A stretch of 52,221 nucleotides of DNA, taken from positions 1-52,221 of the IMG/VR virus record IMGVR_UViG_3300032116_020335; one strand, 5' to 3'. Position numbers and translations under genes: made by a program. How positions within the stretch are numbered: the stretch's first letter is position 1; every line of letters begins with the position of its first letter. The notes beneath the pieces were generated by a model. That model saw nothing but the letters and a program-made list of their open reading frames with translations. It was not told where the DNA came from and searched no databases. Origin of the DNA: a virus. Positions 23,269 through 41,688 of the stretch are shown here, piece by piece.

Positions 23269-25839
23269 TTAATTTTTTAATTCTATGAAAGAATTTCCAT
23301 TTTCATCTTTATCAACCATAATAAGATAATCTGGATTAATTATATCACCATATGCATGCTCAATAATTAAGATTTTATCAATATCTTGTTTAACTTTATT
23401 CATAAGATTTATAAAGTTAATTGCATTTCTTTCAGAGAGTTTACCAAACAGTTCATCAAGTAAAAGAATGTTCGGTCTTGACCTATTATTCATAAATCTT
23501 AATGCAAGTCTAAGGCAAATACAAGCAAATACTCTTTCCATTCCTGAACCTGAAATAACATTCTGAATAATTTCAGGAGTATCTTTTTTTGACATTTGAA
23601 AAAAGAGTTCGTTATCAAAGAATACATTAAAATCAATATCTTCAGTATATCCTTGAAGATACATATTTACTTTTGGAATTAATTTTTTTAATAATGTGCT
23701 TGGAATACCTTCTCTGTGAATACAATTCTGATATTCTTCTCTGATTAACTCTTGTCTTTGTTGTTCTAAATATTTTGTAATTGTATCTTTATAGTTTTTG
23801 ATTTCATTTTCAGCAAATTCAATTTTATATTTAAAATCATTTACTTCTTTTTTTAATGATTCTTTATCATCTTTAAATTCATTTACCTTTGTTTTGTATG
23901 TATCAATTTTTGATTGAATCTTTTTATTTTCTTCAATATAAACTATATTGATATCATATCTTTTTAAGATATCATTTTTTTGAGAGATTTTTAAGTCAAT
24001 ATTTTCAATATGCATTGGAATATTATCATATTCCTGTTTGAATTTATTTCTTTTTTCAATCTCTTTAATAATTAATTCAATTTTTGTAATCTTTTCCTTT
24101 ACTTTCGTAATTGAAACACTTTCTTTTTTAATATCATCCTCAAAATTCTTTATTAATGATTTTTTACTTTCAATCATTAATTCTTTATCTTTGTTTTCTT
24201 CTTTATATTTATCAATATTTTTATTGATTGACTTAATATCTAATTCATATTTCTTTTTGAAAGTTTCTTTTTTAATATCATTCTGAATTTTTTGAATGTC
24301 TTCTTTTAATTTATCAACCTTTACCCTAATTGATGCAATTGCATCTTTATCTTTTAAACGATTACAACTTGGACAAACTTTACTGTCTTCTAATAAAGAA
24401 ATTTCTCTTTCAATTAAATCAATTTGTCTTTCTAAGGCAAGTCTATCATTATCAATTTGAGAATCAATTTTTGATAATGCTATATTATCTTTATGTATAT
24501 ACCCATTTATAACGGCAATATCATTTGTTATAATATTAATTTCTTTATTTAAGTCTTTTATTTGGTCATTTTTAGAAATTAACCAACCATTAAATGAATT
24601 TGATTTTTCCTTTAAAGAGTTATAAAGTTCTTCATCCAAAACAAACTTATTAAGTTCTTCAATTTGTTTTAAAAGGTCTTTCTGTGACCTTTTCTTTTCT
24701 TCTTTATCATCAATAAGTTTATTAATTTCAGATTTAACATTATTAATGTTAAGATTGATTAATTGGTTATCAATTGATTTTAATGTTTTAATCGTATTTT
24801 CAACATGTGTTTCCCCATTTGAAATTCTTTCATTTAGAACATTAATTTTATCTTCTCTATCAATTATATTATTTTCCCAATCTTCAATATAGACTTTTGC
24901 ATCCTCAATAAGTTGATTATATCTATCAACAGAAATATTTAAAAGACTTTCTTTTTTATATTCATTTTTCTTATATATTTTGAATACTTCAAGTTTCTTT
25001 TCAAATATATCAAGACCTGTATCTCTTAGAATTGAGTCTAAGAATTTTGCATGGTCAGTTGTAAGAATATCATTTAAAGTATCAGCATTAATTAAGGATT
25101 TTGTGATAAATTCATCAAAATCCCCAATTGAATGTTCAATTAATCTTTGAGTATTAGTTTTATCTTGTTCTGAAAGATTATTTTCATCAATAATCTCACC
25201 ATTTGAGTCTAATTTATTGAAATAAGTCTTTGTTGAACAAGAAGTGATGTCTGTATGTGTTTTATCCCATTTTCTTTCAGTCCTTCTTCTAATTGCATAG
25301 TCTTCACCATTAATTTCAATGATTAACTGAACTTCTGAATAATCTTTTTTGTTATTGTTGTTGATAAATTTATTATCTCTGTTCTTCTCTTTTTTGAGAG
25401 TATCAAAGGTAGTACCATAAAGACCATATGTAATAGAGTTTAAAATATTTGAATTATGAACTGCAATATTGTTAGCATAATATTCACCAATACCTTCAAC
25501 TTGAATATCTACTAGGTCAATAGTTGTATGTGGGCATGTTGAAATTCTAAAAATATTTTCAATTCCATCTTTAGTTTTGACTTTAATGAAAGGACATTCT
25601 TTTCCAATTTCATCAAATGATTTAAAAAGACCTAAATCTGTTCTAATAAGATGGTCTTTAGATATTGATAATCGTTTTCCTTTTTCCGTTTCTAGTGTCC
25701 AAAATTGAGAATCCTTTGATGTGATATCATAGGCAAGAATTTTTGAATACCCACATGGGGTTTCAACCTCAATATTTAATTCAGGAAGTAAATCCTTTAA
25801 AAATCTAAGATTTTCAATCTTTATTTGTTTCTCTGTCAT
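23269..25839 (-). CDS. 46: Intein C-fragment fused to gp46 (Rad50-like) C-terminal part
   Basis: Residues 1-129 are an intein C-fragment; residue 130 (Ser) starts the gp46 extein. The extein lacks the first ~38 residues of an SbcC/Rad50 protein. It opens with NILNSITYGLYG, which normally follows the Walker A Ser. It has a long coiled coil, a CPSC zinc hook (near 24365-24376), the ISGSGMERVF signature and a Walker B, NILLLDELFGKL (near 23460). In T4 the gp46/gp47 complex resects DNA ends for recombination-dependent replication. A start at ATG 25839 is preferred to an upstream TTG at 25863. It overlaps the HAD-like gene by 26 bases. Alone this protein cannot bind ATP, because its P-loop is completed only by trans-splicing with the gp47 reading frame. 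Confidence 0.92.
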   Translation of the reverse strand: MTEKQIKIENLRFLKDLLPELNIEVETPCGYSKILAYDITSKDSQFWTLETEKGKRLSISKDHLIRTDLGLFKSFDEIGKECPFIKVKTKDGIENIFRISTCPHTTIDLVDIQVEGIGEYYANNIAVHNSNILNSITYGLYGTTFDTLKKEKNRDNKFINNNNKKDYSEVQLIIEINGEDYAIRRRTERKWDKTHTDITSCSTKTYFNKLDSNGEIIDENNLSEQDKTNTQRLIEHSIGDFDEFITKSLINADTLNDILTTDHAKFLDSILRDTGLDIFEKKLEVFKIYKKNEYKKESLLNISVDRYNQLIEDAKVYIEDWENNIIDREDKINVLNERISNGETHVENTIKTLKSIDNQLINLNINNVKSEINKLIDDKEEKKRSQKDLLKQIEELNKFVLDEELYNSLKEKSNSFNGWLISKNDQIKDLNKEINIITNDIAVINGYIHKDNIALSKIDSQIDNDRLALERQIDLIEREISLLEDSKVCPSCNRLKDKDAIASIRVKVDKLKEDIQKIQNDIKKETFKKKYELDIKSINKNIDKYKEENKDKELMIESKKSLIKNFEDDIKKESVSITKVKEKITKIELIIKEIEKRNKFKQEYDNIPMHIENIDLKISQKNDILKRYDINIVYIEENKKIQSKIDTYKTKVNEFKDDKESLKKEVNDFKYKIEFAENEIKNYKDTITKYLEQQRQELIREEYQNCIHREGIPSTLLKKLIPKVNMYLQGYTEDIDFNVFFDNELFFQMSKKDTPEIIQNVISGSGMERVFACICLRLALRFMNNRSRPNILLLDELFGKLSERNAINFINLMNKVKQDIDKILIIEHAYGDIINPDYLIMVDKDENGNSFIELKN
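25453..25839 (-). other. Split-intein C-fragment (129 residues)
   Basis: The fragment contains a VETPCGYSKI strand, a block B-like LSISKDHL (Ser-x-x-Asp-His), a block F-like TIDLVDIQVEGIGEYYANN, and block G AVHN followed by Ser+1. Asn129 and the Ser at 25450-25452 provide the splicing residues. There is no homing-endonuclease domain. Long C-fragments with short N-fragments are the 'atypical' split-intein architecture known from environmental phage genes. Confidence 0.92.
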
Positions 25840-26389
25840 TTTCAAGTAAAGGAAAAATTTCAATAATATTTGTCACCCTATTGTTATAATTCTCATGTTT
25901 CTTTTCAGGGTCAAAAAGAATAATTTTAGTATTTTTAAACTCTAATTCAGATAATTTTGGATTAGCAGTTAATATATAATCAAAGTTTTCATTAACATAC
26001 TCATCAAATTTATTATAAAATCTTATTTGGTCAAAATAAAAACCTGCTGAAAAGTTTGATATATAAAAAGCTGTAAGATTTCTAAATTTGTGTCCTTCTC
26101 TTGATATCATTACTGTTTTATATCCATTTTCGGATAATTCGGGATAGATTTGATTTAAATGTGCAATCAATTCTTTTGATGGTAGTGTTGATTTAGCAAA
26201 TAACTCATAGGAGTATTGAAATAAAAAATCTTCTAATTCATCATTTTCAAAATGGAATGAAAGTAGAGGGTTAAAGGGGTCTATTGGATAACCTATAGAC
26301 CTATCAGCGTATTCAATCTGATAATATTGTTCAAATTTCTTTATGAAATCTCTTAAAATCCCATTCACTTCTATTGCAAAAGTCTTCAT
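25814..26389 (-). CDS. HAD-like protein with altered nucleophile motif (191 aa)
   Basis: The N-terminus FAIEVNGILRDF has the shape of the HAD/5'-nucleotidase motif I (hhhDxDGhhR), but both catalytic Asp positions are changed (Glu7, Asn9). Later, YKTVMISREGHKFRN resembles motif II (Ser/Thr after a strand), and KIILFDPEKKHENYNN resembles the motif III-IV region ('h-h-F-D-D/P'). The length fits a small HAD phosphatase (NT5C-like). It may be catalytically dead or use a different residue. The frame ends inside the start of the intein-gp46 gene (26-base overlap), so the two are co-transcribed from the divergent region at 26390-26449. The family assignment is tentative. Confidence 0.6.
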   Translation of the reverse strand: MKTFAIEVNGILRDFIKKFEQYYQIEYADRSIGYPIDPFNPLLSFHFENDELEDFLFQYSYELFAKSTLPSKELIAHLNQIYPELSENGYKTVMISREGHKFRNLTAFYISNFSAGFYFDQIRFYNKFDEYVNENFDYILTANPKLSELEFKNTKIILFDPEKKHENYNNRVTNIIEIFPLLENDRETNKD

Positions 26390-26405
26390 TTGTCTAAGTT
26401 TTGTA

Positions 26406-26413
26406 CAAATATA
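26406..26413 (-). promoter_or_regulatory. TATATTTG element, candidate Bacteroidota-type promoter (HAD-gp46 unit)
   Basis: In the 60-base divergent region, the minus strand carries TATATTTG, 16 bases before the ATG at 26389. It matches the Bacteroidota sigma-ABfr -7 box TAnnTTTG. I see no clear -33 TTTG box. The same octamer precedes the ssDNA-binding protein gene and the 317-aa glycosyltransferase gene. Confidence 0.45.
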
Positions 26414-26449
26414 TAAAAAATTATCGTATTTTAATTAAAATTTTTAAAA

Positions 26450-27535
26450 ATGAACAGACTAGAAAAATTAAAAGAATTATTTTCTAATATTGAAAGCAAT
26501 AACTTCAATATTTATCTGTATGTTCCTTCAATTCCTGAGAATGTTTATTCAATGGCAGTTGAAGAGATATACAACATTTGTTATCTATTAAGAAAAAATA
26601 GTTACAATGCGTTTCTCATTACAGGTGAAGATGAAAAAGAACCTGAATTTAAAATTCCAACTTATTTAAGGGAGGAATTAAGGTCATTACCACATCTTTC
26701 ACCAAAAAAAGATAATATTAATGTTACACCAAATGATATGATGATTGTTCCTGAGTTTTTTGTTAATGTAATGCACCAAATTTCAGAAGCAAAAATTCAA
26801 TGTGAAAAAATTGTTCTTTGTCAATCTCAAACATATATGCTTGATTCTCTTCCACCAAATCACACTTGGGCTGCATGGGGATTCAATACAATTCTAACAA
26901 CATCTGAGCAACTTAAAGAATTTATTCAAAGAAATTCAAGAGTTAATTACAATATTCAATCATATGAGATTGGGATTCCCGATTTTTTTAAACCTAAAAA
27001 AATTAAGAAACCAATTATTATGTATTTCTCAAGAGAAGATAATAATATTAAAAGATTATCTAAGATTTTCTTTATGAAATATCCTGAACTTTCTTGGGTA
27101 TTATTTGAAAGAGTTCAAGGTGCTGAACCATTTATTACGAGAGAACAACTTGCTGAAAAAATGGGTGAAATTCCTGTTCTGCTTTGGCTTGATAGAGATG
27201 CAGGATTTGGTACACTTCCACTTGAAGCTATGAAAAGTGGTGCTGTGGTTGTTGGTTTGATTCCTGAAATTGAAAAAGATTATACAAAAGTTGATGATAC
27301 ATCTGTTTGGTCAAATTCACTTGAAGTTCTTGCTGAACAACTTGGTGTTGTTATTAAAGAATGGATGGTTGATAATATACCAGATAATGTTTATCAAAAC
27401 ATGAAAAATGTTTCTGAAAAATATAGTCTTGAAAACAATGAAAAAACATTAATTTCTGCTTTTTCAAATATTATTGAAACCAGAAAAACCTTAATTAAAA
27501 ATGCAATAGAAAATACAAATGAAGATGAGCAATAA
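26450..27535 (+). CDS. GT-B-type glycosyltransferase (361 aa)
   Basis: The C-terminal half carries AGFGTLPLEAMKSGAVVVG (around residues 246-264), the donor-binding E-x-x-A-x-x-x-G region of GT4-like GT-B enzymes. The N-terminal half is Rossmann-like (NDMMIVPEFFVNV, KIVLCQSQTYML). The protein is partly homologous to the 317-aa glycosyltransferase at 40730-41683, sharing the IPE.F..., VLxQSxxY and FGTLPLEAM segments. It is the first gene of a plus-strand unit and overlaps the next glycosyltransferase by 17 bases. Substrate is unknown; it may act with the minus-strand sugar cassette. The start ATG is preceded by an A/T-only leader. Confidence 0.75.
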   Translation: MNRLEKLKELFSNIESNNFNIYLYVPSIPENVYSMAVEEIYNICYLLRKNSYNAFLITGEDEKEPEFKIPTYLREELRSLPHLSPKKDNINVTPNDMMIVPEFFVNVMHQISEAKIQCEKIVLCQSQTYMLDSLPPNHTWAAWGFNTILTTSEQLKEFIQRNSRVNYNIQSYEIGIPDFFKPKKIKKPIIMYFSREDNNIKRLSKIFFMKYPELSWVLFERVQGAEPFITREQLAEKMGEIPVLLWLDRDAGFGTLPLEAMKSGAVVVGLIPEIEKDYTKVDDTSVWSNSLEVLAEQLGVVIKEWMVDNIPDNVYQNMKNVSEKYSLENNEKTLISAFSNIIETRKTLIKNAIENTNEDEQ

Positions 27536-28331
27536 ATTAGATTTAACAGTAATTATTCCAGTTAATAAATTGGAAAATGATTTAGACAAAGAATTGTTTG
27601 GTGTAACAATTGATTCTATTTTTAACCAAAATGCTAAAATTACACCAAAGGAAGTTATTTTGATTACTAATACAGAAACAAATAAATTGATTGACTTATC
27701 AAAATATAGTGATATCAATGTAATAATTAATGATGAAACATCAAATAACTATCAAAGTCAAATTAATAAAGCGGTAAATGAAGTTAAAACAACATTTTTC
27801 ATGATTTTAGATGGAGATGATGAATTAACACCACTTTATTTTAAAAATCTATCAGACCATATGGATGAAATGCCAAATGTTGATATGTTTTTACCAATTA
27901 TTGCTGATGTTACATTAGATAAAAAAATTCATCGCTATATTAATGAAATTAATTGGGCAAAAGATGTAACAAATGATAGGCATGGTTATTTGGTTATGGA
28001 AACATTGATGAATTACAATCTTGTTTCAATTAATGGTGCTGTAATTAAAAAAGAGAAATTTGAAGAAGCAGGTGGACTGAAAGAATCAATGAGATTAAGT
28101 TTTGTTTATGAATTCTTAATGCGTTTTACAAACATTGATGGTATTACTTACACTATTCCTAAAATTGGTTATTTAAGAAAAATTGGTAGAGAAAATAGTT
28201 ATCTAACTGAAATTAGTCAAATGGATGGTGATGAGGTAGCTTTTTGGTGGAACTTAGCCAAGAAAGAATATGTTTGGCCTCATGATAGAAATAAAACTTA
28301 TGTAAAGAAGCAAGAAGCACCTATTATTTAA
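27519..28331 (+). CDS. GT2-like glycosyltransferase (270 aa)
   Basis: The N-terminus LTVIIPVNK resembles the start of GT-A family 2 enzymes. An ILDGDDEL motif (about residues 97-103) gives the metal-binding DxD. A later GGLKESMRLSFVYEFLMRF segment corresponds to the 'G-G-F-x-E/D-x-x-x-x-x-E-D' acceptor region of GT2. An alternative start two codons downstream (27525) would shorten the overlap with the upstream gene from 17 to 11 bases. It ends two bases before the sigma-factor gene, so it is co-transcribed with it. Donor and acceptor sugars cannot be told from sequence. Confidence 0.75.
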   Translation: MKMSNKLDLTVIIPVNKLENDLDKELFGVTIDSIFNQNAKITPKEVILITNTETNKLIDLSKYSDINVIINDETSNNYQSQINKAVNEVKTTFFMILDGDDELTPLYFKNLSDHMDEMPNVDMFLPIIADVTLDKKIHRYINEINWAKDVTNDRHGYLVMETLMNYNLVSINGAVIKKEKFEEAGGLKESMRLSFVYEFLMRFTNIDGITYTIPKIGYLRKIGRENSYLTEISQMDGDEVAFWWNLAKKEYVWPHDRNKTYVKKQEAPII

Positions 28332-28333
28332 TA

Positions 28334-29122
28334 ATGGCTGAAAAAGGTAGACGAGGGAGAAAGGCTAAACCAGGGTCTGTAAAAGAATATTTTACTGATG
28401 CAACAGAAAGGGCTATTATAAGATATAATAGCCCCGACTGTTCATTAGATGAAAAGAATGAAATCTATGAAAAAGAAATTCATAGAGCATTAAAAAAACT
28501 TGCTTATTTTACAGCAAAATCTTATTTTCTTTATTTTTCAAGACGCTATACTATAGAGGATATGGAAAATGACCTTTTAATTTTTGCATTTAATAATCTT
28601 CATATGTTTAATCCTGAAAAGATTAATAAACATGGTGTTAAATCAAAAGCATTTTCCTATTTCTCTACAATTTGTAAGAATGAAGCAAAACACATTTCAG
28701 AAAGAAATTTTAATCAAGATAAATCTAGTGATGATGTAATTGAAAATCTTGATTTATTTGAAAGGGATATAACATTATCATATTGTATTGATGAAAATTT
28801 TGAGGAAAATACAGACATTAATTATATTAAGATTGTATTCTTGGGAATGTGTAATGAAATAAAGAATAAAATTGAAACAGATAAAGTATTAAAAGAGATT
28901 GATGTTAATGTTGGTTATTCTCTCATTTCAATTATTGAGAATTTTAGATATATTAATGAACCAACAGAATCAAAAATGAGTTTATTTTTTATAAATAATA
29001 GAGTAATTGATATGATTTGTGAAATTACAGATAATAGATATAAAAAACAAGATATTAAAAAATCTCTAAAAACATTTAAATGTTTGTATAGTAAGCTAAA
29101 AGATGATTATATGAATAATTGA
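28334..29122 (+). CDS. 55: gp55-like sigma factor for late transcription (262 aa)
   Basis: A basic N-terminus (EKGRRGRKAKPG) is followed by a helical region with the sigma-70 region 2-like pattern, including TIEDMENDLLIFAFNNLHMFNPEK and KAFSYFSTICKNEAKHISER. The latter matches the 'A-x-x-Y-F-x-T-I-x-x-N' segment characteristic of T4 gp55 and its relatives. In T4, gp55 replaces host sigma and with gp33 and the gp45 clamp directs RNA polymerase to late promoters. At 262 residues it is longer than T4 gp55 (185), with an extra C-terminal part of unknown role. It lies between the glycosyltransferases and gp53. The repeated CTAYTTATA elements in this window are candidates for its promoter. Confidence 0.75.
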   Translation: MAEKGRRGRKAKPGSVKEYFTDATERAIIRYNSPDCSLDEKNEIYEKEIHRALKKLAYFTAKSYFLYFSRRYTIEDMENDLLIFAFNNLHMFNPEKINKHGVKSKAFSYFSTICKNEAKHISERNFNQDKSSDDVIENLDLFERDITLSYCIDENFEENTDINYIKIVFLGMCNEIKNKIETDKVLKEIDVNVGYSLISIIENFRYINEPTESKMSLFFINNRVIDMICEITDNRYKKQDIKKSLKTFKCLYSKLKDDYMNN

Positions 29123-29131
29123 CTATTTATG
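29122..29131 (+). promoter_or_regulatory. ACTATTTATG element before gp53
   Basis: The plus strand reads GACTATTTATGAGTAAATAACCC and then the gp53 ATG at 29144. This is the plus-strand counterpart of the element found before minus-strand genes, oriented the same way relative to its gene. That supports a directional role. gp53 is a late structural gene in T4. Confidence 0.4.
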
Positions 29132-29143
29132 AGTAAATAACCC

Positions 29144-29449
29144 ATGATGGATGAATTTAATTTATATAATGGTTTCATAGATGATAATACTTTCGCAACA
29201 TTACCATTTTTTAAAATTGACGAAAGTGATGAGGATATTTATATTGAATGGAATATAGGGAATAGACTAGATGTACTAGCCTATAAATATTATCAAAATG
29301 CTGCATTATGGAAATTCATTTTACTAGCAAATCCTCAATACCTATGTGAAGGTGATATAAATATTGGTGACATTCTAAGAATACCAATGCCAAAAGAAAA
29401 TATGTTTTCTATTATAAATAGAAGAGTTGATATATCAAAAAGATTTTAA
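29144..29449 (+). CDS. 53: Baseplate wedge protein gp53-like (101 aa)
   Basis: A small protein with a LysM-like segment: NRLDVLAYKYYQNAALWKFILLANPQYL, then GDINIGDILRIP. This pattern (D-x-L-A-x-x-Y-Y...W-x-x-I-x-x-A-N...G-x-x-L-R-I-P) is the hallmark of gp53 baseplate wedge subunits and related LysM-containing tail proteins. In T4 it joins the wedges around the hub. T4 gp53 is longer, so this is a compact version. The gene is the last of the plus-strand unit and overlaps the convergent 64-aa reading frame by four bases. Confidence 0.75.
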   Translation: MMDEFNLYNGFIDDNTFATLPFFKIDESDEDIYIEWNIGNRLDVLAYKYYQNAALWKFILLANPQYLCEGDINIGDILRIPMPKENMFSIINRRVDISKRF

Positions 29450-29640
29450 ACATATACTATAGAAGTATTGTTATCCATTTTTTCCTCAACAAATTTATAA
29501 AATTTATTATCCATAATAATATTACCCAATTCTTTGGGTATATATATTATTTTTATTTTACCATCAATAATTACCTTTGATTTCTTTTTTTCATCCAATG
29601 ATGAAAAGATTAACATCTCTTTGTGTTTAAGGTAAACCAT
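29446..29640 (-). CDS. Small hypothetical protein (64 aa)
   Basis: A short Lys/Ile-rich protein (contains KSKVIIDGKIKIIYIPKELG) with no recognisable domain, signal peptide or membrane helix. Its start overlaps the end of the KTSC-domain gene by 14 bases, so it is likely co-translated with it. The stop overlaps the convergent gp53 gene. A hairpin at 29523-29540 lies within the frame. Reality is supported only by tight spacing in the operon. Confidence 0.5.
   Translation of the reverse strand: MVYLKHKEMLIFSSLDEKKKSKVIIDGKIKIIYIPKELGNIIMDNKFYKFVEEKMDNNTSIVYV
29523..29540 (+). terminator. Possible terminator for the plus-strand unit
   Basis: TACCCAA at 29523-29529 and TTGGGTA at 29534-29540 form a perfect 7-bp stem with a 4-base loop, followed on the plus strand by TATATATTATTTTTATTTTA. 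It lies ~75 bases after the gp53 stop, inside the convergent 64-aa frame. It fits an overlapping convergent terminator but may be a chance inverted repeat. Confidence 0.45.
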
Positions 29641-29887
29641 CTACCTCTAACTTAACCCCAAGATATCTGTTCTTGATAAATTCTATAAATGCTTTTCCTG
29701 TTGAGTCTGAATCTTGTAGTTTAAAGTAATCTTCAGGTTTAACATTATCATATTGATATGTCATATTACCTTTTACAAAAGTTACATATAAAGTATTATT
29801 GGTTGTATCATAAGTTGATGATACGATGTTTGATGAATCGTATGTTGCTTTAACGATTCCATCTTCTTGTTTTACATTTGTTGTCAT
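29627..29887 (-). CDS. KTSC-domain-like small protein (86 aa)
   Basis: The protein reads YDSSNIVSSTYDTTNNTLYVTFVKG then MTYQYDNVKPEDYFKLQDSDS and GKAFIEFIKNRY. This is the layout of the KTSC domain (S-S-x-I...Y-D...L-x-V-x-F-x-x-G-x-x-Y-x-Y-x-x-V...S-x-G-x-x-F-x-x-x-I), a ~60-residue domain found in many phage and bacterial proteins and often attached to lysyl-tRNA synthetase or nucleases. Its function is undefined. The gene overlaps the BCS1-like ATPase stop by 4 bases and the 64-aa gene by 14, suggesting tight co-expression. Confidence 0.7.
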   Translation of the reverse strand: MTTNVKQEDGIVKATYDSSNIVSSTYDTTNNTLYVTFVKGNMTYQYDNVKPEDYFKLQDSDSTGKAFIEFIKNRYLGVKLEVDGLP

Positions 29888-30990
29888 AAATTTAGTAATT
29901 CTTCGTGAAGTTCTGATATATTATCAAAAGTTTTATTGTTTTCTATATTAAATTTTATTTTTAATTCATCAATTAATGTTTCGCTTGGTTTTTTGATTTC
30001 CATTAAAACATCGGTCCTACCTTTTCTTTTAATTGCATCATCAATTTTATCAAGTTCATTAGTTGTTATGATAAATATAACATCATTTGGTGTATATATA
30101 CCATCTAATACGTTTAAAATACAAGAAAGTGAAATCTTAATATCAGATTCTTTCTTTTCTTCCTTTTTTCTATTAATATCATCCAATAAACAATCAATAT
30201 CTTCAAATAAAACTATTGATTTTTTTGGTCTATCTGAAATTAATGCAATAAGGTTTGCATCTGTCATATCTTTAGAAAGATTAATTGATAATATATCTCT
30301 TTTTGTATAATTAGATATACCTAATGACAATGATGATTTTCCTGTTCCTGGAGAACCATAGAAAAGATATGTTCTTTTATATCTGATACCATATTTATCA
30401 TATTTTTCTTTTGATAAATTAAATCTATCTAAATCATTTTTAAGAAATTCTGATACATTATTATCAAGATAAATATTATCAAAAGTCTTATTTATTACTC
30501 TACCTGCACATTTTATTTCACCATTAAAATTATAAAAGTATTTTATATATTTATTACCATATGTTACATCAACATAATCTAATAATTCTTTTAAAATAAT
30601 CTTATTTCTACAAAAAATCATAAACATATGTTTACTATTCTTATAGGGTGTCATGCTATTTTGTATATTTTCAGCATTCTTTAAAACTAAAAATCTATTA
30701 CCTTTAAATTTAAAATAAACAAATCCTGAATTATAAAACATATTTACATTATTATTATCTTCTCCTGCAATCCAACCATCAAAAAATGTTCTGTAATAAA
30801 GATTTTTAACTGAGTTTTGTTTTTCTGATAGAATAAAATTTTGAAATGAATAAAAGAAAAAAGAACTTTCTTCAATCTTCATTGAACAGATAATTCTATC
30901 TCTTAATGTTGTTAAGACAAAAAGAAAAAATTGTTTGAAGTAAACTAATGTACCTCCAAGAATGAGTGTTAATAATACAGTTTTATCCAT
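29884..30990 (-). CDS. Membrane-anchored BCS1-like AAA ATPase (368 aa)
   Basis: An N-terminal hydrophobic helix (about residues 4-28, VLLTLILGGTLVYFKQFF) is followed by a ~160-residue domain and an AAA module. The AAA module has Walker A YGSPGTGKSS (211-220), Walker B LFEDIDCLL (261-269), a sensor-1 region VIFIITTNELDKIDDA, and an arginine-finger-like KRKGRTD. This order (TM helix, BCS1-type N-domain, AAA) is that of BCS1 proteins, which translocate folded proteins across the mitochondrial inner membrane. Bacterial and phage homologues are less well understood. It overlaps the FkbM-like gene by eight bases. It may remodel or extract a protein at the host membrane. The role in phage is not known. 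Confidence 0.78.
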   Translation of the reverse strand: MDKTVLLTLILGGTLVYFKQFFLFVLTTLRDRIICSMKIEESSFFFYSFQNFILSEKQNSVKNLYYRTFFDGWIAGEDNNNVNMFYNSGFVYFKFKGNRFLVLKNAENIQNSMTPYKNSKHMFMIFCRNKIILKELLDYVDVTYGNKYIKYFYNFNGEIKCAGRVINKTFDNIYLDNNVSEFLKNDLDRFNLSKEKYDKYGIRYKRTYLFYGSPGTGKSSLSLGISNYTKRDILSINLSKDMTDANLIALISDRPKKSIVLFEDIDCLLDDINRKKEEKKESDIKISLSCILNVLDGIYTPNDVIFIITTNELDKIDDAIKRKGRTDVLMEIKKPSETLIDELKIKFNIENNKTFDNISELHEELLNL

Positions 30991-31591
30991 TTATTTTAAA
31001 TAAGTAATCGTTATGTGTGCCATCCCAATGTGGGTTATCTTTATGATTAAAATTAGTTAAATTTTCGATTAATTTATAATTTTTTTCTCCCATAAAATCC
31101 ATAATTTTTTCTAAATCTTTTGTATAGATTTCTATAACAATCCATGTTGGACTACAATAATCAAAATCTAAACCATTTAATACTTCATATTCATGTCCTT
31201 CAACATCTAAAGAAAAAAAATCAACTTTATTAATATTATTACTTTTTAATATTGTTGTTAATGTTTTAGATAGAACTTTATAATTACTATTTCTTGTTAA
31301 TCTTTCACCGTTAATACTACTCATTAAACTACCATCAAAATCACCATCTATTTCTTTATTTTCATTTTCAAAAGATGATAATAAACAATTTTCAAAAATA
31401 TTTAAATTGCCCCTGTTTAATTTACATGCTTCAAAAGCATTAATGGATGGTTCTATCAAAATACCATTCCAATTTTTTTCATTCTCCAAGCGAAGGGTAT
31501 TGCTTTGTTTTACACCATCATTTGCACCGCATTCAATATAAAACCCATCATTAAAGTTTAATAATTGAAATATCTTATCATTAAGTTCCAT
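30983..31591 (-). CDS. FkbM-like methyltransferase (202 aa)
   Basis: The SAM-binding motif YIECGANDG (residues 18-26) and the downstream FFSLDVEGHEYEVLNGLDF segment are characteristic of the FkbM methyltransferase family, which often methylates sugar hydroxyls. A conserved LTTILKSN-like stretch precedes the D-V-E-G motif. The gene starts two bases after the gp47 reading frame and overlaps the AAA ATPase gene, so it is part of the gp47 operon. It may extend the nearby sugar cassette, though it is separated from it by gp47. It now occupies the place where the rest of gp46 would be expected. Confidence 0.78.
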   Translation of the reverse strand: MELNDKIFQLLNFNDGFYIECGANDGVKQSNTLRLENEKNWNGILIEPSINAFEACKLNRGNLNIFENCLLSSFENENKEIDGDFDGSLMSSINGERLTRNSNYKVLSKTLTTILKSNNINKVDFFSLDVEGHEYEVLNGLDFDYCSPTWIVIEIYTKDLEKIMDFMGEKNYKLIENLTNFNHKDNPHWDGTHNDYLFKING

Positions 31592-31593
31592 AA

Positions 31594-32931
31594 TTAATTT
31601 AAAAATTCAGGTAAATATCCAAGTTTATTTATTATTTCTTCTTTGTTATATTTAATATTAATCTTTGTTTGAGGATGAACACATTTTCCAACTTGATTTT
31701 CCCCATAAATTTGGATAATTCCATTTTTGTCTACTAAATCAAGTTCATATCTTTCACCATGTGATTTAAAGTTATCTAGTACAATCTTTTTAACTTTCCA
31801 ATCATAAAATTGATTTTCTACATCCTTTTCAATTAATGATGTTATTTCATTATCAAGTGATAAAACATCTTTTATAAAGTCTTCTTGATGATTTTTAGCT
31901 TTCAAAAAGTTTATAAACTCTTGTCTTACACTATCATCATTGTTTAAATCAATAGTTTCATCAAATTCTTTAATCTTTAAAGATTTATTGAGAATCTTTG
32001 ATTTATCAAATTTAATGGTGGCGAATTCGCCATATTTAGATTCTAAATATTTCTTAATCTTTTGTTTATTTTCAACATTAAATGTTGAATATTGGTCCAT
32101 CCAATGGATTTTAAGATAATTATGTTTTCCAACATTTTTAAGTTCAATGTTTAGATTTTCATAATCATAATCTTCATTGATATAGATATTAAAGTATTTA
32201 TAATCTGAGATTATTTCTTTCTTTTCAAAAGTTTTTGCTTCAATATCCCATAAAAGATAACCATGAAAAGCATTATCACCTTCACCATAATTGGTACAAT
32301 ATAATGATGATGGGTAAGCAAAAAACTCTTTTCCATTTTTTTGATATGATTGTTGGAGATGTATATCTCCTGCCATTACAATATCACCTTTAAAATCAGC
32401 AAGAGAAACAAGATTACTATCGGTATGGAGTTGTCCATTTTGAAGGTAGCATCCATTAATTGGGTCATGGAAAAGGTCAATATAATGCTTATTATTATTG
32501 CGCTCTTCTTCATTGAATTCAAGCCAAGGGGATTTTCTATCAGGGTGATACCAAACAGCGAAAACAATATTATCAAGTTCAAAAAAACCTGTTGAATCAT
32601 AGTAGTGTATATTAGGATTGTTAATAATCTCAACAAGCATCTTAATTGATGACATTCTGTTAAGATTTGATTTCATTATATCGTGATTACCATCAATAAT
32701 AACCACAGGTGCTATCATAGCACAAGAGTTTAAGAAATCACCTGCAAGTACATTGATTTCATTAAATGGTTTTACATAATTATGAAAAAGGTCACCTGCA
32801 ATTACAATTAAATCAGGTCTGTCCTTAATTAAGGATTTAATTGTGAGACTTGAAATATGTTTTTGTTCTGATAGTCTATCCAAATTATTTTGAAAATGGA
32901 TATCAGCAAGGTGTGCAATTTTTTTAATCAT
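31594..32931 (-). CDS. 47: gp47 (Mre11-like nuclease) fused to gp46 N-terminus and intein N-fragment
   Basis: Residues 1-~375 are the gp47/SbcD/Mre11 phosphoesterase: ADIHF (9-13), GDLFH (46-50), GNHD (81-84) and AGDIH (187-191). T4 gp47 has 339 residues. From about 378 the chain continues as the start of gp46/SbcC (VKKIVLDNFKSHGERYEL) and reaches the Walker A at YGENQVGK (409-416). There it is cut by Cys417, the first residue of a 29-residue intein N-fragment. The frame then stops. Alone it would make Mre11 plus an incomplete Rad50 N-lobe. The start overlaps the GT8-like gene in an ATGA junction. The rest of gp46 is at 23269-25839. Confidence 0.93.
   Translation of the reverse strand: MIKKIAHLADIHFQNNLDRLSEQKHISSLTIKSLIKDRPDLIVIAGDLFHNYVKPFNEINVLAGDFLNSCAMIAPVVIIDGNHDIMKSNLNRMSSIKMLVEIINNPNIHYYDSTGFFELDNIVFAVWYHPDRKSPWLEFNEEERNNNKHYIDLFHDPINGCYLQNGQLHTDSNLVSLADFKGDIVMAGDIHLQQSYQKNGKEFFAYPSSLYCTNYGEGDNAFHGYLLWDIEAKTFEKKEIISDYKYFNIYINEDYDYENLNIELKNVGKHNYLKIHWMDQYSTFNVENKQKIKKYLESKYGEFATIKFDKSKILNKSLKIKEFDETIDLNNDDSVRQEFINFLKAKNHQEDFIKDVLSLDNEITSLIEKDVENQFYDWKVKKIVLDNFKSHGERYELDLVDKNGIIQIYGENQVGKCVHPQTKINIKYNKEEIINKLGYLPEFLN
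31597..31683 (-). other. Split-intein N-fragment (29 residues)
   Basis: Block A reads CVHPQTKINIKY, with Cys1 directly after the Walker A Lys of the gp46 N-extein. A short helix-like tail EEIINKLGYLPEFLN leads to the stop codon. The small size is typical of atypically split inteins such as those in phage TerL and UvsX genes, where the N-fragment is about 25-35 residues. Its partner is at 25453-25839. Confidence 0.92.
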
Positions 32932-33716
32932 ATTTTAGATAAAGAAACTGTAGTATTAAATTTAATAATATTTTCCAAATATTTTTCCTTGAATGTTTTA
33001 TTATATCTCTCACAAAATGAATCATTAAGCCAAGGCTTATGAAATAAATGAACACAAATTGTTTTATCGTTTATATTAGGATGACCAATAAATTTATCAT
33101 TTTGTATCGATATTGTATTTTTATTAAAATACAAATTTAAAATTGCTTGGTCTGTTCCTTCTTCAGATAAATGATTATTAATATGTTTGTATTTTTTAGT
33201 TAAAAAAATTATCTCAGATAATGTTTCTTTTTTAATAAGATTACTATTAAAATATAAAAAACCAGCATTAAAACCAAATTTATGTATATCATAAATATTT
33301 TCTAATTCTTTTAATTTTATTTCTCTATCGTATTTACTCATTCTTTGGCAAAAATATTCGCTAATAGCCCAAGGTTCAAGCAAAACTAATATGTCATTTT
33401 TTGAATCTTTTAAATCAATAGTAATTTTTTCTAAGTTATCAAAAATTATAATGTCTAAATCTAGATACATTACATAATCCCATTTTTTAAAAAAATAATC
33501 AAAAATATAAATTGTTGGCATAAATTTATTAGTTTCATTTATATGAAATAAATAAACACCTAATTTTTTAAAATCAATTAAATCAATTTCATCTATATTA
33601 TTAGCTATTAAACAAAAATCATAACACCATTTACCTTCTTGCTTGCAATTTATAATAATTGATTTAACATGTTCTAAATAATTTTTATCTGCTGCTAAAA
33701 CTATAACTTTTTTCAT
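32928..33716 (-). CDS. GT8-like glycosyltransferase (262 aa)
   Basis: A GT-A fold protein. The N-terminus KKVIVLAADKNYLEHVKSII matches GT8 start strands. The metal-binding motif is YLDLDIIIF (Asp86 and Asp88), and the late segment CVHLFHKPW resembles the H-x-x-G/x-x-K-P-W motif of GT8 enzymes. FNAGFLYFNSNL is the usual 'N-x-G-h-h-h-F-N' GT8 block. It overlaps gp47 by four bases (ATGA) and is the last gene of the sugar cassette before the recombination nuclease. It probably transfers a hexose to a glycan. Donor and target are unknown. Confidence 0.78.
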   Translation of the reverse strand: MKKVIVLAADKNYLEHVKSIIINCKQEGKWCYDFCLIANNIDEIDLIDFKKLGVYLFHINETNKFMPTIYIFDYFFKKWDYVMYLDLDIIIFDNLEKITIDLKDSKNDILVLLEPWAISEYFCQRMSKYDREIKLKELENIYDIHKFGFNAGFLYFNSNLIKKETLSEIIFLTKKYKHINNHLSEEGTDQAILNLYFNKNTISIQNDKFIGHPNINDKTICVHLFHKPWLNDSFCERYNKTFKEKYLENIIKFNTTVSLSKI

Positions 33717-33718
33717 TT

Positions 33719-34471
33719 TTATGTAAAACTTTTTACTGTTAATTTATTTGTATCAAAATTATTCCAAATTTTATAATAATTTTCTATTGTAAAAAAAGAT
33801 GGATTAAAATTTGACCAATCATCAATTACAAATATAGGATAATTTTTATAAAAATCAATATTTATTGATTTTGTCACTATTGGTATGGTTTTTAAATATA
33901 AACCCTCCCAAGTCTTGTGGCAGTCAATTCCATTTCCATTTGGAGAAACAACAAAATAACTTTTAGATAGTTCTATTAAATAATCTTTAAATGGTAATTT
34001 ATTTTCCATTTTAAAGTCATGTTTATTTAATTCATTTATACAATAACTTCTTTCGTTTATGTTTGTGTTTATATCAAAATTTAAATATATTAGTTTTTCT
34101 TTTTTATTATTTTGTGATATTATTTCATTTAAAATATTTTCATCACCATGAGGCCATATTTCATTTGCTATTCCAATTGGTATTGATTTTAATTTAGGAT
34201 GAGATATGTTTATATTTTGTCCATACCATTCAATTAAATTTTTATCATTTAAATACTGAATATGTGATTCATTTATTGATAAATCACCATTATGTGTAAA
34301 TAAAATATATGGTATGTCTTTTTTAATTTGAAAAAAATGATGTATAAAATCAATTTTAACAAAAATTTTAATTATTTCATTTTCTTTTGGTTCTAAATTT
34401 TTAACAAATCCATGTTCATCATATGAATAATGGCAATTTTTTTTAAATTTATTTCCTGTTATGAAATTCAT
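33719..34471 (-). CDS. Exostosin-like glycosyltransferase (250 aa)
   Basis: The C-terminal portion contains YFVVSPNGNGIDCHKTWEG then LKTIPIVTKS, the nucleotide-sugar-binding signature of exostosin/GT47-like proteins (F-x-x-x-P-x-G-x-x-x-D-x-x-R/K-x-W-E). The N-terminal half is a Rossmann-like lobe, with IPYILFTHNGDLS around residue 75-85. It is shorter than eukaryotic exostosins, as expected for phage versions. It ends three bases before the GT8-like gene and its start overlaps the previous gene by one base. Family-level assignment is fair; the reaction is unknown. Confidence 0.65.
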   Translation of the reverse strand: MNFITGNKFKKNCHYSYDEHGFVKNLEPKENEIIKIFVKIDFIHHFFQIKKDIPYILFTHNGDLSINESHIQYLNDKNLIEWYGQNINISHPKLKSIPIGIANEIWPHGDENILNEIISQNNKKEKLIYLNFDINTNINERSYCINELNKHDFKMENKLPFKDYLIELSKSYFVVSPNGNGIDCHKTWEGLYLKTIPIVTKSINIDFYKNYPIFVIDDWSNFNPSFFTIENYYKIWNNFDTNKLTVKSFT

Positions 34472-35196
34472 TAACTTAATAAATTTACTAACTTGTCTAC
34501 TTCTTCTTTATGTTGTTTATATGGTCTTAAAAGATGTGAGTCAATGTAATAGTCAAAATTTACCAAACTAGGATTGTAATTCCAATATAGTCTATCAATT
34601 CGGTGATTTGCAGGTCCATATGTCCAACCTCTTGAAAGCAAGACTATTTCTTCTTTATTATTGTATTGTTGAATTTTTTCAAATAAATATTTTTGGTCGG
34701 TTGACCAGCCTTGATTTCTATTGTTAAGTCTATTAACAAATTCACTCCATTCGCAATTTAAGTCTAATATTTCTATAAATTTTGAAGGATTTGCGATGTT
34801 ATAACACATAGGATATTCCTTATTATTTAAACATTCATAATTATCTGAACTCATTACATAGAGTTTATTATCATCAAAAAAATCTACTTGATTTATAAAA
34901 TATTTTCTAGATAATGGTATCATATCTATATCAGATATAACACAATTATCATCTAAAAATTTAGTTATATAAAATCTTACAATTTGTGATTGTAATCCTG
35001 TATCAATATTATCAATTGATTTGAATTTTTTTATTAACCCATATTCATCTTCAATAAAATCTGAATCTTCATCACAAATTAAAGCTAAAACAGGTGTTAT
35101 ATTAAATATTGTTTTCCATACTTTTGAAACAACAGGCCAAAAATCTATATATAATGGATTTAAGTTAGACCCGACAATTGCATACTTAATTTTCAT
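34471..35196 (-). CDS. GT-A-type glycosyltransferase-like protein (241 aa)
   Basis: A GT-A-like layout: an N-terminal strand KYAIVGSNL, a central CVISDIDMIPL with Asp89/Asp91 as a DxD metal site, and a C-terminal region RGWTYGPANHRIDRLYW followed by DSHLLRPY that could bind the acceptor. I do not recognise a numbered GT family. Overlaps of four bases upstream and one base downstream tie it to the cassette. A sugar-nucleotide transferase is inferred from the DxD motif and neighbours. Confidence 0.6.
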   Translation of the reverse strand: MKIKYAIVGSNLNPLYIDFWPVVSKVWKTIFNITPVLALICDEDSDFIEDEYGLIKKFKSIDNIDTGLQSQIVRFYITKFLDDNCVISDIDMIPLSRKYFINQVDFFDDNKLYVMSSDNYECLNNKEYPMCYNIANPSKFIEILDLNCEWSEFVNRLNNRNQGWSTDQKYLFEKIQQYNNKEEIVLLSRGWTYGPANHRIDRLYWNYNPSLVNFDYYIDSHLLRPYKQHKEEVDKLVNLLS

Positions 35197-35894
35197 ATTT
35201 TATTTTTTTTATTGTAAATTTCTATTATTGGTGTTCTTTGGTCACCTGCTGGTTCATCATCACCCTGAATTGCTTCACCTATAAAAGCAAAATTATTTGA
35301 TTTTCTATCATGATTTATTGGTTTAGCATATGATTCATGATTATAATACTCATCATGAACTAAGCAATTATTTATAGTATATGGATAAACGATATCTCTT
35401 AAAAAATGTTGGTCAATAGCTTTATCATGCGTTCTAAAATTTACTCTTAGATAATCATTAATAATGTCTCTAAAATTTAGTATTGTATTTCCTTTTGCAC
35501 CCCACATACCTGCATTCATAGCCCACCAATGTCCAATAGGATGGTCTCTAATAATATGGAAATTTTTTCCTGATTCTATCCATTCTGTTACTGCTATTAC
35601 ATCTCTTTCTGATATTCTAGAATCACAATCTCTACAGATATAATATTCAAGATTTTCTTCATTCATAGGTAGAAATCTCCACATTGAATTTATATATCCA
35701 TGATTGGTATCTTTTTTTATTAATTTTACATCAAGATTTATTAATTGTTCAATTATTTCTTGAGGAACTGTATCATTATAATAAACCCACATTTCCCAAT
35801 CAGGGAAGTGTATTTTTTTTAATTCAGCATTTCTAATGCAACCAATAGTATACATTGGATTTGAACCATATAAAGAAAAAGATATAACTTTCAT
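35193..35894 (-). CDS. GT-A-type glycosyltransferase-like protein (233 aa)
   Basis: The segment EYYICRDCDSRISERD (around residues 83-98) gives a DxD-type motif (Asp89, Asp91), and the preceding GYINSMWRFLPM with the R-x-x-D-x-D-S-R arrangement is typical of a GT-A family common in phage and bacterial polysaccharide loci. A conserved block HPIGHWWAMNAGMWGAKG follows, then QHFLRDIVYP. The stop overlaps the downstream start by four bases. Probable sugar transferase of unknown specificity. Confidence 0.68.
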   Translation of the reverse strand: MKVISFSLYGSNPMYTIGCIRNAELKKIHFPDWEMWVYYNDTVPQEIIEQLINLDVKLIKKDTNHGYINSMWRFLPMNEENLEYYICRDCDSRISERDVIAVTEWIESGKNFHIIRDHPIGHWWAMNAGMWGAKGNTILNFRDIINDYLRVNFRTHDKAIDQHFLRDIVYPYTINNCLVHDEYYNHESYAKPINHDRKSNNFAFIGEAIQGDDEPAGDQRTPIIEIYNKKNKI

Positions 35895-35897
35895 AAA

Positions 35898-36242
35898 TTA
35901 ATTATTATAATGTTTAACCGAATCTTCAATTAATGTTTTATTTTCTCTTATTGATTTATCAATAAGTCTATTAATTGCTTCTACTAATTTCGGTCTTTTA
36001 TGTTTAAAACAAATATCTAATTTTCTTTTAACATCTGCTAAAACTTCATCATTATCTGTAGTTTTATATGAATCTTCTAAATACCACATTCTACAATGAA
36101 GAATACATAATTTTTCAATTATTTCACCAAAATTATCTGTTTCAATTAAATCAGATGGTACACCTGTATCTTTATTAATGTTTAGTAATTCTTTAATTTT
36201 AATGTTAATAAAATTATCAATTGTATTTCCTATATTATCCAT
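35898..36242 (-). CDS. DUF4254-like small helical protein (114 aa)
   Basis: An all-helical sequence with ILHCRMWYLEDSYKT near residues 48-62 and KRKLDICFKHKRPKLVEAINRLID. This layout resembles DUF4254 proteins, small proteins found beside glycosyltransferases in Bacteroidota and some phages. It is spaced three bases from the downstream glycosyltransferase gene. It may be an accessory of the glycan machinery. The resemblance is by eye and moderate. Confidence 0.55.
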   Translation of the reverse strand: MDNIGNTIDNFINIKIKELLNINKDTGVPSDLIETDNFGEIIEKLCILHCRMWYLEDSYKTTDNDEVLADVKRKLDICFKHKRPKLVEAINRLIDKSIRENKTLIEDSVKHYNN

Positions 36243-36243
36243 A

Positions 36244-37038
36244 TTAATTTAAATTCTCTAAAACTTGATTAATGTTATTATAATTTATTATTTCAGCACC
36301 AATAAAATTGCTTGCATCACCATGATATAAAATATTATCATTCAAATTTGAACGACTGAAATCTAATATATGATGTTTTCCTTTATGACTTAATAGTGCA
36401 ATCATTGAACCACCACTTAAAGGTCCAATAAAACCAATACATTTATCTGATGATAAATATGTATTTGCTTGTGATAATGTTAATTCATTTTTACCATACT
36501 TTTCACCAATTGAATTTGCATTTTTACCATAAATAAAAAAGTCATAACCCATATTTATAATTTTTTCAATTATTGCAAAATAATCATCAATTGAAACATT
36601 TCTATTACCACCCCAGGGTCTTTCTCTATAATGAATTATAAAAAAATTATTTTCTGCATTGGGTATGATTTCTTTTTCTGTATCTAATATCTTTTCAATA
36701 AGATTTTTATCTAACATATCAACACTATTATCATTATTTATGATAAAATTATAATCACTTGGATAAGTAATAATTTCCATATCTGAATGATTCATATTTA
36801 TAAAATCTTCATATGCAATAACATTTTTAAAAATGCTTTCATAAAAAAACATTCTATCTCTTAATGTAACAATTGTTGTATCTTCATTAGAAATTTCATT
36901 GCTCAAAAGTTTTTTTATAATAATAATTCTACTAGTACCAATTTCCCAACCTAATTCCCAATATTTTTCCAAAAGATTACTATCGCTATTTCTAGTAGCT
37001 GTAAAATTTTCTGATTTTCCTAAAATATAATATTTCAT
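36244..37038 (-). CDS. GT-B-like glycosyltransferase-like protein (264 aa)
   Basis: Looks like a GT-B fold protein. The segment CIGFIGPLSGGSMIALLSHKGKHHILDFSR (about residues 200-229) is of the kind that binds a nucleotide-sugar in ADP-heptose/GT9-like enzymes ('G-x-x-S-G-x-x-x-A/I-A...G'). The earlier NNFFIIHYRERPW region could be an acceptor-side loop. The family cannot be fixed. It lies two bases upstream of the DUF4254-like gene and two bases after the GT10-like gene. A role in glycan assembly is inferred. Confidence 0.55.
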   Translation of the reverse strand: MKYYILGKSENFTATRNSDSNLLEKYWELGWEIGTSRIIIIKKLLSNEISNEDTTIVTLRDRMFFYESIFKNVIAYEDFINMNHSDMEIITYPSDYNFIINNDNSVDMLDKNLIEKILDTEKEIIPNAENNFFIIHYRERPWGGNRNVSIDDYFAIIEKIINMGYDFFIYGKNANSIGEKYGKNELTLSQANTYLSSDKCIGFIGPLSGGSMIALLSHKGKHHILDFSRSNLNDNILYHGDASNFIGAEIINYNNINQVLENLN

Positions 37039-37040
37039 AT

Positions 37041-37820
37041 TTATTTAAATAAAAAATTATAATTTTCAAAAAAATAATTTTCTGGCATTGTTAATTTTAG
37101 TGCTAAATTATAATTTTCTTCAATATTATAATTTGATACACCATTATTAATAATTTCTTCTAGTTCATTAATATTAGAAAATATTGGTATGTTTTTAAAA
37201 TAATTATTAATATTTTTAGTACCCCAATATAATGGTATTGTTCCTGTCAAAATTGTATCAATTAATTTTTCAGTAAAATAATCATCTTGAATTGAGTTTT
37301 CAATAACTATAGAATATTTGTAATCTTTAAGACCTTCTATTTTATTATCAATTTGTTTATAACCAAAACCAAAAACATCTATTTTATTAGTAAAATGATT
37401 AATTACCTCATGTCTAAGTTTATGACCTTCTGTTTGTCTTTTTCCAGATGCAATAATTGAACAAAATTTTGTTTTATCGTGTATTTTTTTATCTTCATCT
37501 TTTAACCAACAACCACAATGAGGATAAAATAAAAATTTATCTGATAAATTTAATAATTCTTTATCGTATGTCAATATATAATCAAATAAATTATAATTAT
37601 TTTTTATAAATTCATATGTTTGACTATTAATTGCTCTAGGTTCAATTAACCATGCAACTTTTATTTCATCATTTGATTGATAAACATTTGATAAACATGT
37701 ATCCGTAAAAAAACACACATTTGATGGTTCATTTTTTCTTACCCATTTAAAATATTGACATTTTTGTAATGTAGAGTAATCTGTATGTGCAAATGCAAAA
37801 TCTTTGATTTTTATTTCCAT
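37041..37820 (-). CDS. GT10-like fucosyltransferase (259 aa)
   Basis: Residues ~167-200 read YKYSIVIENSIQDDYFTEKL then TGTIPLYWG. This matches the GT10 fucosyltransferase signature Y-K-F-x-I-x-x-E-N-S-x-x-x-D-Y-h-T-E-K-h...G-x-x-P-h-Y-x-G. An upstream KFCSIIASGKRQTEGHKLR segment matches the 'h-x-x-S-N-C-x-x-x-x-x-R' GDP-binding region. GT10 enzymes transfer L-fucose from GDP-fucose in alpha-1,3/1,4 linkage. The start overlaps the sugar O-methyltransferase gene by 10 bases. No GDP-fucose synthesis genes are in the window, so the donor may come from the host. Confidence 0.72.
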   Translation of the reverse strand: MEIKIKDFAFAHTDYSTLQKCQYFKWVRKNEPSNVCFFTDTCLSNVYQSNDEIKVAWLIEPRAINSQTYEFIKNNYNLFDYILTYDKELLNLSDKFLFYPHCGCWLKDEDKKIHDKTKFCSIIASGKRQTEGHKLRHEVINHFTNKIDVFGFGYKQIDNKIEGLKDYKYSIVIENSIQDDYFTEKLIDTILTGTIPLYWGTKNINNYFKNIPIFSNINELEEIINNGVSNYNIEENYNLALKLTMPENYFFENYNFLFK

Positions 37821-38572: not shown

Positions 38573-38583
38573 ATTTTTTATAA

Positions 38584-39174
38584 TTACTCGTTATGGTTGA
38601 ATATTAAATTACCACCAATTGGTTTTTTTGGTTGATAATTATCTATAGGATTAAAATCGTATTTTCTAGAGAAAAATATTGTTGTTGTCCATGCGTATTT
38701 ATTAAGTGGACCCATTCCGTGAAAATCAATTTGAATAAAATTATTATTTCTTAATAAAGAGCATGAATCAACATACCAATTAGAATTATCAAAAATAATT
38801 ATCCCTGTTTTATTTAAAAACTTAGCTGCTAATAACGCACAATCTTGTCTAAAATCGCCATCAATTAATATTATGTCAAATTTATCAAAGTTTTTTATAT
38901 AATTTATATATTCTTCTTTATTATTTGCAAAAAATAATTCTTGATTTTCTCTTTTATTATTAATACCAATATTATACCATTCTACATTATTTTCTACACT
39001 TATAACTTTTTTACAATTCCTAGAAAAATAAGAACTTGAATTACCTGAACCCCATTCAAAAACTGTTTTGTCAGATAAATCTAATTGTGCTAGATATTCA
39101 ATTGTTGGGTAGGTAAACCAAGGTAAGGTATTATTATTTTCATCTGTTATTTGATGAGTGTATACACTATTCAT
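38584..39174 (-). CDS. Class I SAM-dependent methyltransferase (196 aa)
   Basis: The SAM motif FEWGSGNSSSYFSR (about residues 39-52) is followed by KKVISVENN, with an acidic residue that would bind ribose, and by FDIILIDGDFRQDC, motif-II-like. The latter (D-G-D/D-F-R-x-D-C) is typical of a methyltransferase family found in glycan and natural-product clusters. The stop is 11 bases from the next gene and the start overlaps the GT2 gene by 4 bases. Substrate unknown, probably a sugar. Confidence 0.68.
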   Translation of the reverse strand: MNSVYTHQITDENNNTLPWFTYPTIEYLAQLDLSDKTVFEWGSGNSSSYFSRNCKKVISVENNVEWYNIGINNKRENQELFFANNKEEYINYIKNFDKFDIILIDGDFRQDCALLAAKFLNKTGIIIFDNSNWYVDSCSLLRNNNFIQIDFHGMGPLNKYAWTTTIFFSRKYDFNPIDNYQPKKPIGGNLIFNHNE

Positions 39175-40728: not shown

Positions 40729-40729
40729 G

Positions 40730-41683: not shown

Positions 41684-41688
41684 ATTGT

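Follow-up and report, generated by a model that had tools for sequence, protein, structure and literature searches.

A putative atypically split intein at the P-loop of a phage Mre11-Rad50 (gp47-gp46) fusion gene

Introduction

How does a phage obtain a complete Rad50 when the P-loop of that protein is divided between two genes? The question is raised by IMG/VR virus record IMGVR_UViG_3300032116_020335, a stretch of 52,221 nucleotides that was analysed in full (the window). In it, the gene for the Rad50/SbcC-like protein gp46 is broken between the lysine and the serine of its Walker A motif, and a fragment of a putative split intein lies on each side of the break. We consider it highly probable that a fusion gene of gp46 and gp47, an Mre11/SbcD-like nuclease, was broken at this site by the intein, and that trans-splicing remakes a protein of 1143 amino acids (aa). 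The Mre11-Rad50 enzyme serves in the repair of DNA breaks.

Results and discussion

One P-loop in two reading frames

Both halves are open reading frames (ORFs) on the minus strand, separated by 5754 bases. The N-half (31594-32931, 445 aa) encodes more than gp47: it leads from an Mre11/SbcD-like phosphoesterase into the start of gp46, YDWKVKKIVLDNFKSHGERYELDLVDKNGIIQIYGENQVGK, and from there into the intein N-fragment, CVHPQTKINIKYNKEEIINKLGYLPEFLN, before the stop. Its gp47 part (residues 1-375; 31807-32931) matches Pfam Metallophos (E = 1.2e-11), TIGR00619 sbcd (4e-12) and phrog_35725 (at 6-481), and the Mre11 motifs GDIH and GNHD are intact by motif search. Residues 376-416 (31684-31806) are the gp46 N-terminus, which aligns without gaps through the junction with intact fused relatives and ends GENQVGK, the first part of Walker A. 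The last 29 residues, C417-N445 (31597-31683), are the intein N-fragment, composed of a core, CVHPQTKINIKY, and a tail, NKEEIINKLGYLPEFLN, and conserved in eight contigs.

The C-half (23269-25839, 856 aa counted from the ATG) opens with an intein C-fragment of 129 residues (25453-25839) that carries block B S60xxH63, block F D111 and the terminal pair H128 N129. It ends YYANNIAVHN, directly before the Ser+1 of NILNSITYGLYG. From this serine onwards the frame (SNILNSITYGLYG) continues as the rest of gp46 (23272-25452), recognized by phrog_77 (SbcC-like, 3e-28), by Pfam SbcC_Walker_B (1.1e-4) and by its zinc hook CPSC, Walker B ILLLDE and H-loop IEH; for the ATP-binding cassette (ABC) signature, the search pattern was unmatched in all four sequences checked. 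Once the K of the N-half meets the S of the C-half, GENQVGKS is a perfect GxxxxGK[ST]. An initial annotation, made from the sequence alone, had outlined these frames and the 29-aa and 129-aa intein parts and had proposed that joining K to S restores the P-loop; the former proved correct to the base, and the latter is borne out by the sequence. A regular expression for an intein C-terminus with its +1 nucleophile had a single match in the window and none in 300 codon-shuffled windows. Because of this, and because the same pair is kept in independent contigs, we do not attribute the pair to chance.

The same fracture in related phages

Scans of viral contigs recovered relatives that, like the window, are metagenome contigs. 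Both halves are present in seven contigs: the window, L002 (91 kb), L003 (129 kb), L004 (37 kb, N-half cut by the contig end), L005 (170 kb) and L007 (61 kb), each of the last two with the C-half cut, and the diverged L044. The six other than the window all come from different metagenome datasets, judged by their names. L006 is identical to the window over both halves and was left out of the count, and L018 and L019 hold N-halves only, near contig ends. The halves lie 4.0-5.8 kb apart in every contig that holds both. In the tree, fractured contigs form one clade (support 100/100), consistent with a single origin of the fracture.

The diverged member, contig 3300017917_004390 (L044, L047 and L058), is 55% identical over the P-loop stretch of the extein. 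Its N-half ends GENQAGK|CLHPSTRVKIRYGLSER, giving an N-fragment of just 17 aa, and its C-half begins with a 130-aa C-fragment that ends NDEIISHN|SNILNSITYGLQG. The 17-residue tail of the N-fragment (31597-31647 in the window, minus strand) is kept in the window lineage and missing in L044. At 531-550 of L044, the stop codon of the N-half and the beginning of the following gene overlap.

Catalytic residues and selection

Residues expected of a working intein do not vary among these phages. Cys1 follows GENQxGK in all contigs with an N-half, L044/L058 included; block B S60xxH63 shows no variation in alignments A8 and A9; and the block F Asp, the terminal His-Asn and Ser+1 are invariant, also in L044. 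Across the set, just 29 of the 129 C-fragment positions are invariant, and the C-fragments of the fractured lineages are only 38-39% identical to each other. The ratio of non-synonymous to synonymous substitution rates (dN/dS) is 0.14 in the N-fragment (core 0.06 versus tail 0.24, from few sites) and 0.21 in the C-fragment overall, with 0.11-0.13 at its ends. Both exteins are under strong purifying selection (0.09 in gp47, 0.065 at the start of the C-half part of gp46). As a separate observation, mean dS is about 1.15 in the intein C-fragment and about 0.5 in the exteins on either side, a roughly twofold difference that may point to exchange of C-fragments between lineages.

Could the halves instead be separate proteins that assemble non-covalently, with gp47 alone serving as the nuclease and with intein remnants that splice no more and only dock? 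The Mre11 motifs kept in the N-half, the lineage with an N-fragment of just 17 residues and the fast-evolving middle of the C-fragment would all suit such an arrangement. Docking, however, needs no Cys1, block B His, terminal His-Asn or Ser+1, all of which have stayed invariant despite the low identity of the C-fragments, and ATP binding would hardly be expected of a P-loop severed between its Lys and Ser, with 29 + 129 additional residues left there. We therefore regard non-covalent assembly as improbable and favor an intein that still splices.

Less probable again, to the point that we give it hardly any weight, is a degenerate or mis-assembled gene, either a pseudogene pair or an assembly rearrangement. 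All of the sequences are metagenome contigs, and the window has no second copy for comparison, as such an explanation would allow. Against it, the seven two-half contigs have identical gene order and orientations with partly different intergenic content, both exteins are strongly conserved (dN/dS 0.065-0.09), and the nuclease and ATPase motifs that were looked for are intact, except for the ABC signature, whose pattern matched no sequence. Given that the spacing and the same four intervening genes are kept in all cases, we interpret the arrangement as old, not as an assembly artefact.

Predicted fold and position of the break

The profile of the joined N- and C-fragments matches the gp41-1 intein in PDB (E = 3.8e-7), and hhalign aligned its C-fragment with that of the split intein annotated in gp17 of Aeromonas phage PX29 (probability 95.9). 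A search of phage records with the joined intein returned weak matches only (E 0.7-3), to TerL and DnaB inteins.

A match to the HINT fold had been set beforehand as a test of the intein assignment, and one was found for the model of the C-fragment. AlphaFold, run on the C-fragment alone with seven sequences, gave a predicted local distance difference test score (pLDDT) of 81.7 and a predicted template modelling score (pTM) of 0.73; an earlier run with six close sequences had been poor (pLDDT 64), and addition of the diverged L044 sequence raised it to 82. In a Foldseek search of PDB, the matches shown were inteins or hedgehog/BIL HINT domains. The best template modelling score (TM-score) was with VidaL (PDB 6vgv; 0.84, root-mean-square deviation 1.9 A over 128 columns), and gp41-1 was matched at E = 8.7e-7. 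A search of viral models gave, among its named matches, DnaB helicases of phages, terminases and further proteins of intein type.

Atypically split inteins have N-fragments of 15-37 aa, with natural breaks of this kind at two positions, one following strand beta2 (S1: VidaL, PolB16) and the other following helix alpha1 (S2: AceL, GOS TerL) (PMC13014065). The locus has the natural atypical format, with separate ORFs and short N- and long C-fragments (29 + 129 aa in the window, 17 + 130 aa in L044). The initial annotation had concluded that the split was atypical, which stands. An N-fragment of 29 aa would by its length suggest a break of the AceL type (S2), but a helix at residues 8-17 of the C-fragment model can be read as alpha1, and the 17-aa N-fragment of L044 is too short to contain that helix; the break is thus predicted to be of the VidaL/PolB16 type (S1).

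Because the extra residues form an ORF that has intein blocks, is selected at the protein level and is predicted to adopt a HINT fold, we give hardly any weight to a joining of the halves at the RNA or DNA level (by a trans-splicing intron or programmed rearrangement), for which their placement in separate transcription units, judged by gene orientation, might otherwise speak.

Intact relatives and the predicted fused product

In more distant phages, gp47 and gp46 form one unbroken frame with no intein at the site. Fused ORFs of this kind occur in L012 (LR756501, 1202 aa), L024 (1164 aa), L034 (1146 aa), L035 (1248 aa) and L036 (1243 aa), and L046 and L059 are further, more distant phages with a single frame. 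At the empty site, the intact relatives read GENQSGK|SNIYNAITYLLYG, GENQQGK|STILDAITYILYG and similar, without insert. The joined window sequence is 43-44% identical to L024 and L012, and its junction is free of gaps. Since the gene is a single ORF of 1146-1248 aa in intact relatives, the product restored by splicing would be an Mre11-Rad50 fusion, and gp47 and gp46 are naturally one polypeptide in this group. The initial annotation had foreseen a spliced product of 1143 aa, a length that holds in both fractured lineages (window; L058), and had described the break as one of gp46; the single-ORF relatives identify the product as the gp47-gp46 fusion.

The window halves match the two ends of phrog_35725 (1376 aa), at 6-481 and 1020-1356, and on this alignment we read phrog_35725 as probably such an Mre11-Rad50 fusion family. 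Its label is metallo-phosphoesterase only, and a continuous polypeptide of Mre11 and Rad50 is found in several large phages (L012, L024, L034, L035, L036, L046 and L059). The analysis thereby brings out a phage protein family in which the two are one polypeptide.

An intact gp46 elsewhere in the genome would have spoken against splicing of the pair, as the initial annotation recognized. Searched with the joined P-loop region, six relatives' records held only the two halves each, and the 52-kb window record held only its own C-half. Among bacterial and archaeal genome contigs, no relative was confirmed with a P-loop alignment. The interpretation as an atypically split class 1 intein at GK|S of gp46, as originally proposed, thus has the support of conservation, selection, sequence and profile matches, the fold match, the empty site and the lack of an intact copy in searched records.

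Several points weigh against it. The joined intein scores below the curated cut-offs of NCBIfam TIGR01445 (17.8 versus 24.5 bits) and Pfam PF14890 (13.4 versus 35.8); the cut-off of a curated hidden Markov model is a limit for detection and no part of the chemistry that defines inteins. Residues 71-105, in the middle of the C-fragment, are weakly constrained (dN/dS 0.43). The structural model covers the C-fragment alone. Finally, no searched record is known to be complete (none has IMG/VR end repeats and the largest is 170 kb), so that an intact gp46 could still lie outside them.

A proposed route from two halves to one protein

We propose that the ancestral gene encoded gp47-gp46 (Mre11-Rad50) as a fusion, and that an intein with a split close to its own N-terminus interrupted it at Lys|Ser of Walker A. 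Each half would be transcribed and translated on its own. The 29-aa N-fragment, predicted to comprise strands beta1-beta2 and the tail, would then dock on the 129-aa C-fragment, which would already hold the remainder of the HINT fold, with helix alpha1 as part of it; that the tail specific to the window lineage, NKEEIINKLGYLPEFLN, helps docking is a guess. Splicing would start with an N-S acyl shift at Cys1, followed by transfer to the P-loop Ser+1; cyclization of Asn129 with His128 and a further acyl shift would leave a peptide bond, joining GENQVGK to SNILN in the 1143-aa Mre11-Rad50 protein. This chemistry is established for class 1 inteins. The P-loop serine would double as +1 nucleophile and as Walker A serine, and because neither half holds a whole P-loop, Rad50 ATPase activity should arise only after splicing. 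That trans-splicing takes place, at what speed, and that gp46 function requires it, we infer from the features described above.

Comparison with known systems

By TM-score, VidaL is the closest structural counterpart: it is cysteine-dependent and its break follows beta2 (S1), leaving alpha1 in the C-fragment (PMC13014065). It differs in sequence (identity only 20%) and in its N-fragment of 16 aa, against 29 aa here and 17 in L044. AceL-TerL, GOS-TerL and Cat, natural inteins except for Cat, which is a consensus, likewise combine a short N-fragment (25-37 aa) with a long C-fragment and a phage-type host protein, but they are broken after alpha1 (S2) and reside in TerL; the Foldseek match to Cat is weaker (TM-score 0.53). 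The gp41-1 split intein, the best sequence match in PDB, has a canonical break, with an N-fragment of 88 aa, and its host is the gp41 helicase.

In gene organization, the locus resembles the fractured genes of PX29 gp17 and AceL NrdHF, in which each of two ORFs has one extein and one intein part. PX29 gene 17 (17A/17B) is also a phage gene split by an intein, with an N-fragment of 33 aa by our reading. Its two ORFs overlap, however, a GIY-YIG endonuclease is fused to its C-half and its host protein is a terminase. AceL NrdHF is associated with a homing endonuclease, unlike the window locus, where Pfam and PHROGs found none. Insertion in a P-loop is shared with the Mycobacterium smegmatis DnaBi1 and Pyrococcus horikoshii RadA inteins, which are contiguous, cis-splicing and in other host proteins, DnaBi1 being of class 3. 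In DnaBi1, too, the P-loop Ser is the +1 nucleophile (PMC6195587). The fused family phrog_35725, whose ends the window halves match, is a further counterpart; in the intact relatives examined, the site is free of an intein.

Each ingredient is already known: inteins with a natural atypical split, phage genes that are fractured, and inteins in P-loops. Their combination appears to be new, with this host protein and site, a fracture maintained across genes of the opposite strand with no homing endonuclease found, and a predicted product in which Mre11 and Rad50 are fused. The literature searched, which lacked some key papers, contained no description of a split intein in phage gp46/Rad50 or at its GK|S site, in keeping with what the initial annotation had supposed. 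Phage Rad50 (gp46) and its P-loop thus appear to be a new host protein and insertion site for natural split inteins. A natural family with short N-fragments, in 17-aa and 29-aa versions, could also serve protein labelling.

Genomic setting and a possible role

A replication module (DnaB-like helicase, 42780-44234; 5'-3' exonuclease, 45046-46125; a weakly RecA-like protein, 46125-47189) precedes the N-half, which runs into a convergent unit. At the far, divergent side of that unit the C-half begins. That unit includes four plus-strand genes (26450-29449), for a glycosyltransferase-like protein (361 aa), a GT2 glycosyltransferase (270 aa), a 262-aa ORF and a baseplate-wedge-like protein (101 aa), which are kept between the halves in all relatives, with 61-90% identity in close relatives and 34-42% in L044. 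Downstream of the N-half, on the minus strand (29446-31591), lie genes for an FkbM methyltransferase, a BCS1-like AAA ATPase, a KTSC protein and a 64-aa ORF. No homing endonuclease was found by Pfam or PHROGs among the ORFs between the halves.

The halves should be on different transcripts. This argument rests on gene orientation, because promoter patterns (sigma-70, TATAAATA and TAnnTTTG) were not clearly commoner than in shuffles of the AT-rich window DNA. A terminator-like hairpin (29523-29540), reading on both strands, stands at the end of the convergent units in the window; no such bidirectional hairpin was found in L002, L003 or L044.

Given that no homing endonuclease was detected and that four genes of the opposite strand constantly separate the halves, we tentatively raise the possibility that the fracture is kept for its own sake. 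It might act as a post-translational AND-gate, in which the N-half from the replication module and the C-half from a separate unit are both needed for a covalent fusion with a working P-loop, timing recombination in the phage cycle. We consider such a role less likely than not. The locus offers a clean way to ask whether split inteins, besides being relics of mobile elements, can persist as regulatory devices: no homing endonuclease was found, the transcription units are separate, the tree is consistent with one origin and both catalytic ends are under purifying selection.

The remaining observations concern neighboring genes. A 191-aa ORF (25814-26389, minus strand) overlaps the start of the C-half with its 3' end, as it does in L002, L003 and L004, and translational coupling of the two is possible. 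The FkbM-type methyltransferase ORF (202 aa; 30983-31591, minus strand) directly follows the N-half in the window lineage only; it is absent there in L002-L005, L007 and L044, a distribution suggestive of a recent insertion. Genes for several glycosyltransferases and methyltransferases surround the locus (27519-28331, 32928-42384), together with the BCS1-like AAA ATPase gene (29884-30990), and possibly form a surface- or DNA-modification module. Further away, two neighboring large ORFs of 1385 and 764 aa (9444-15931, minus strand) match phrog_25468 in 5 and 7 stretches, respectively, and seem to share a repeated domain.

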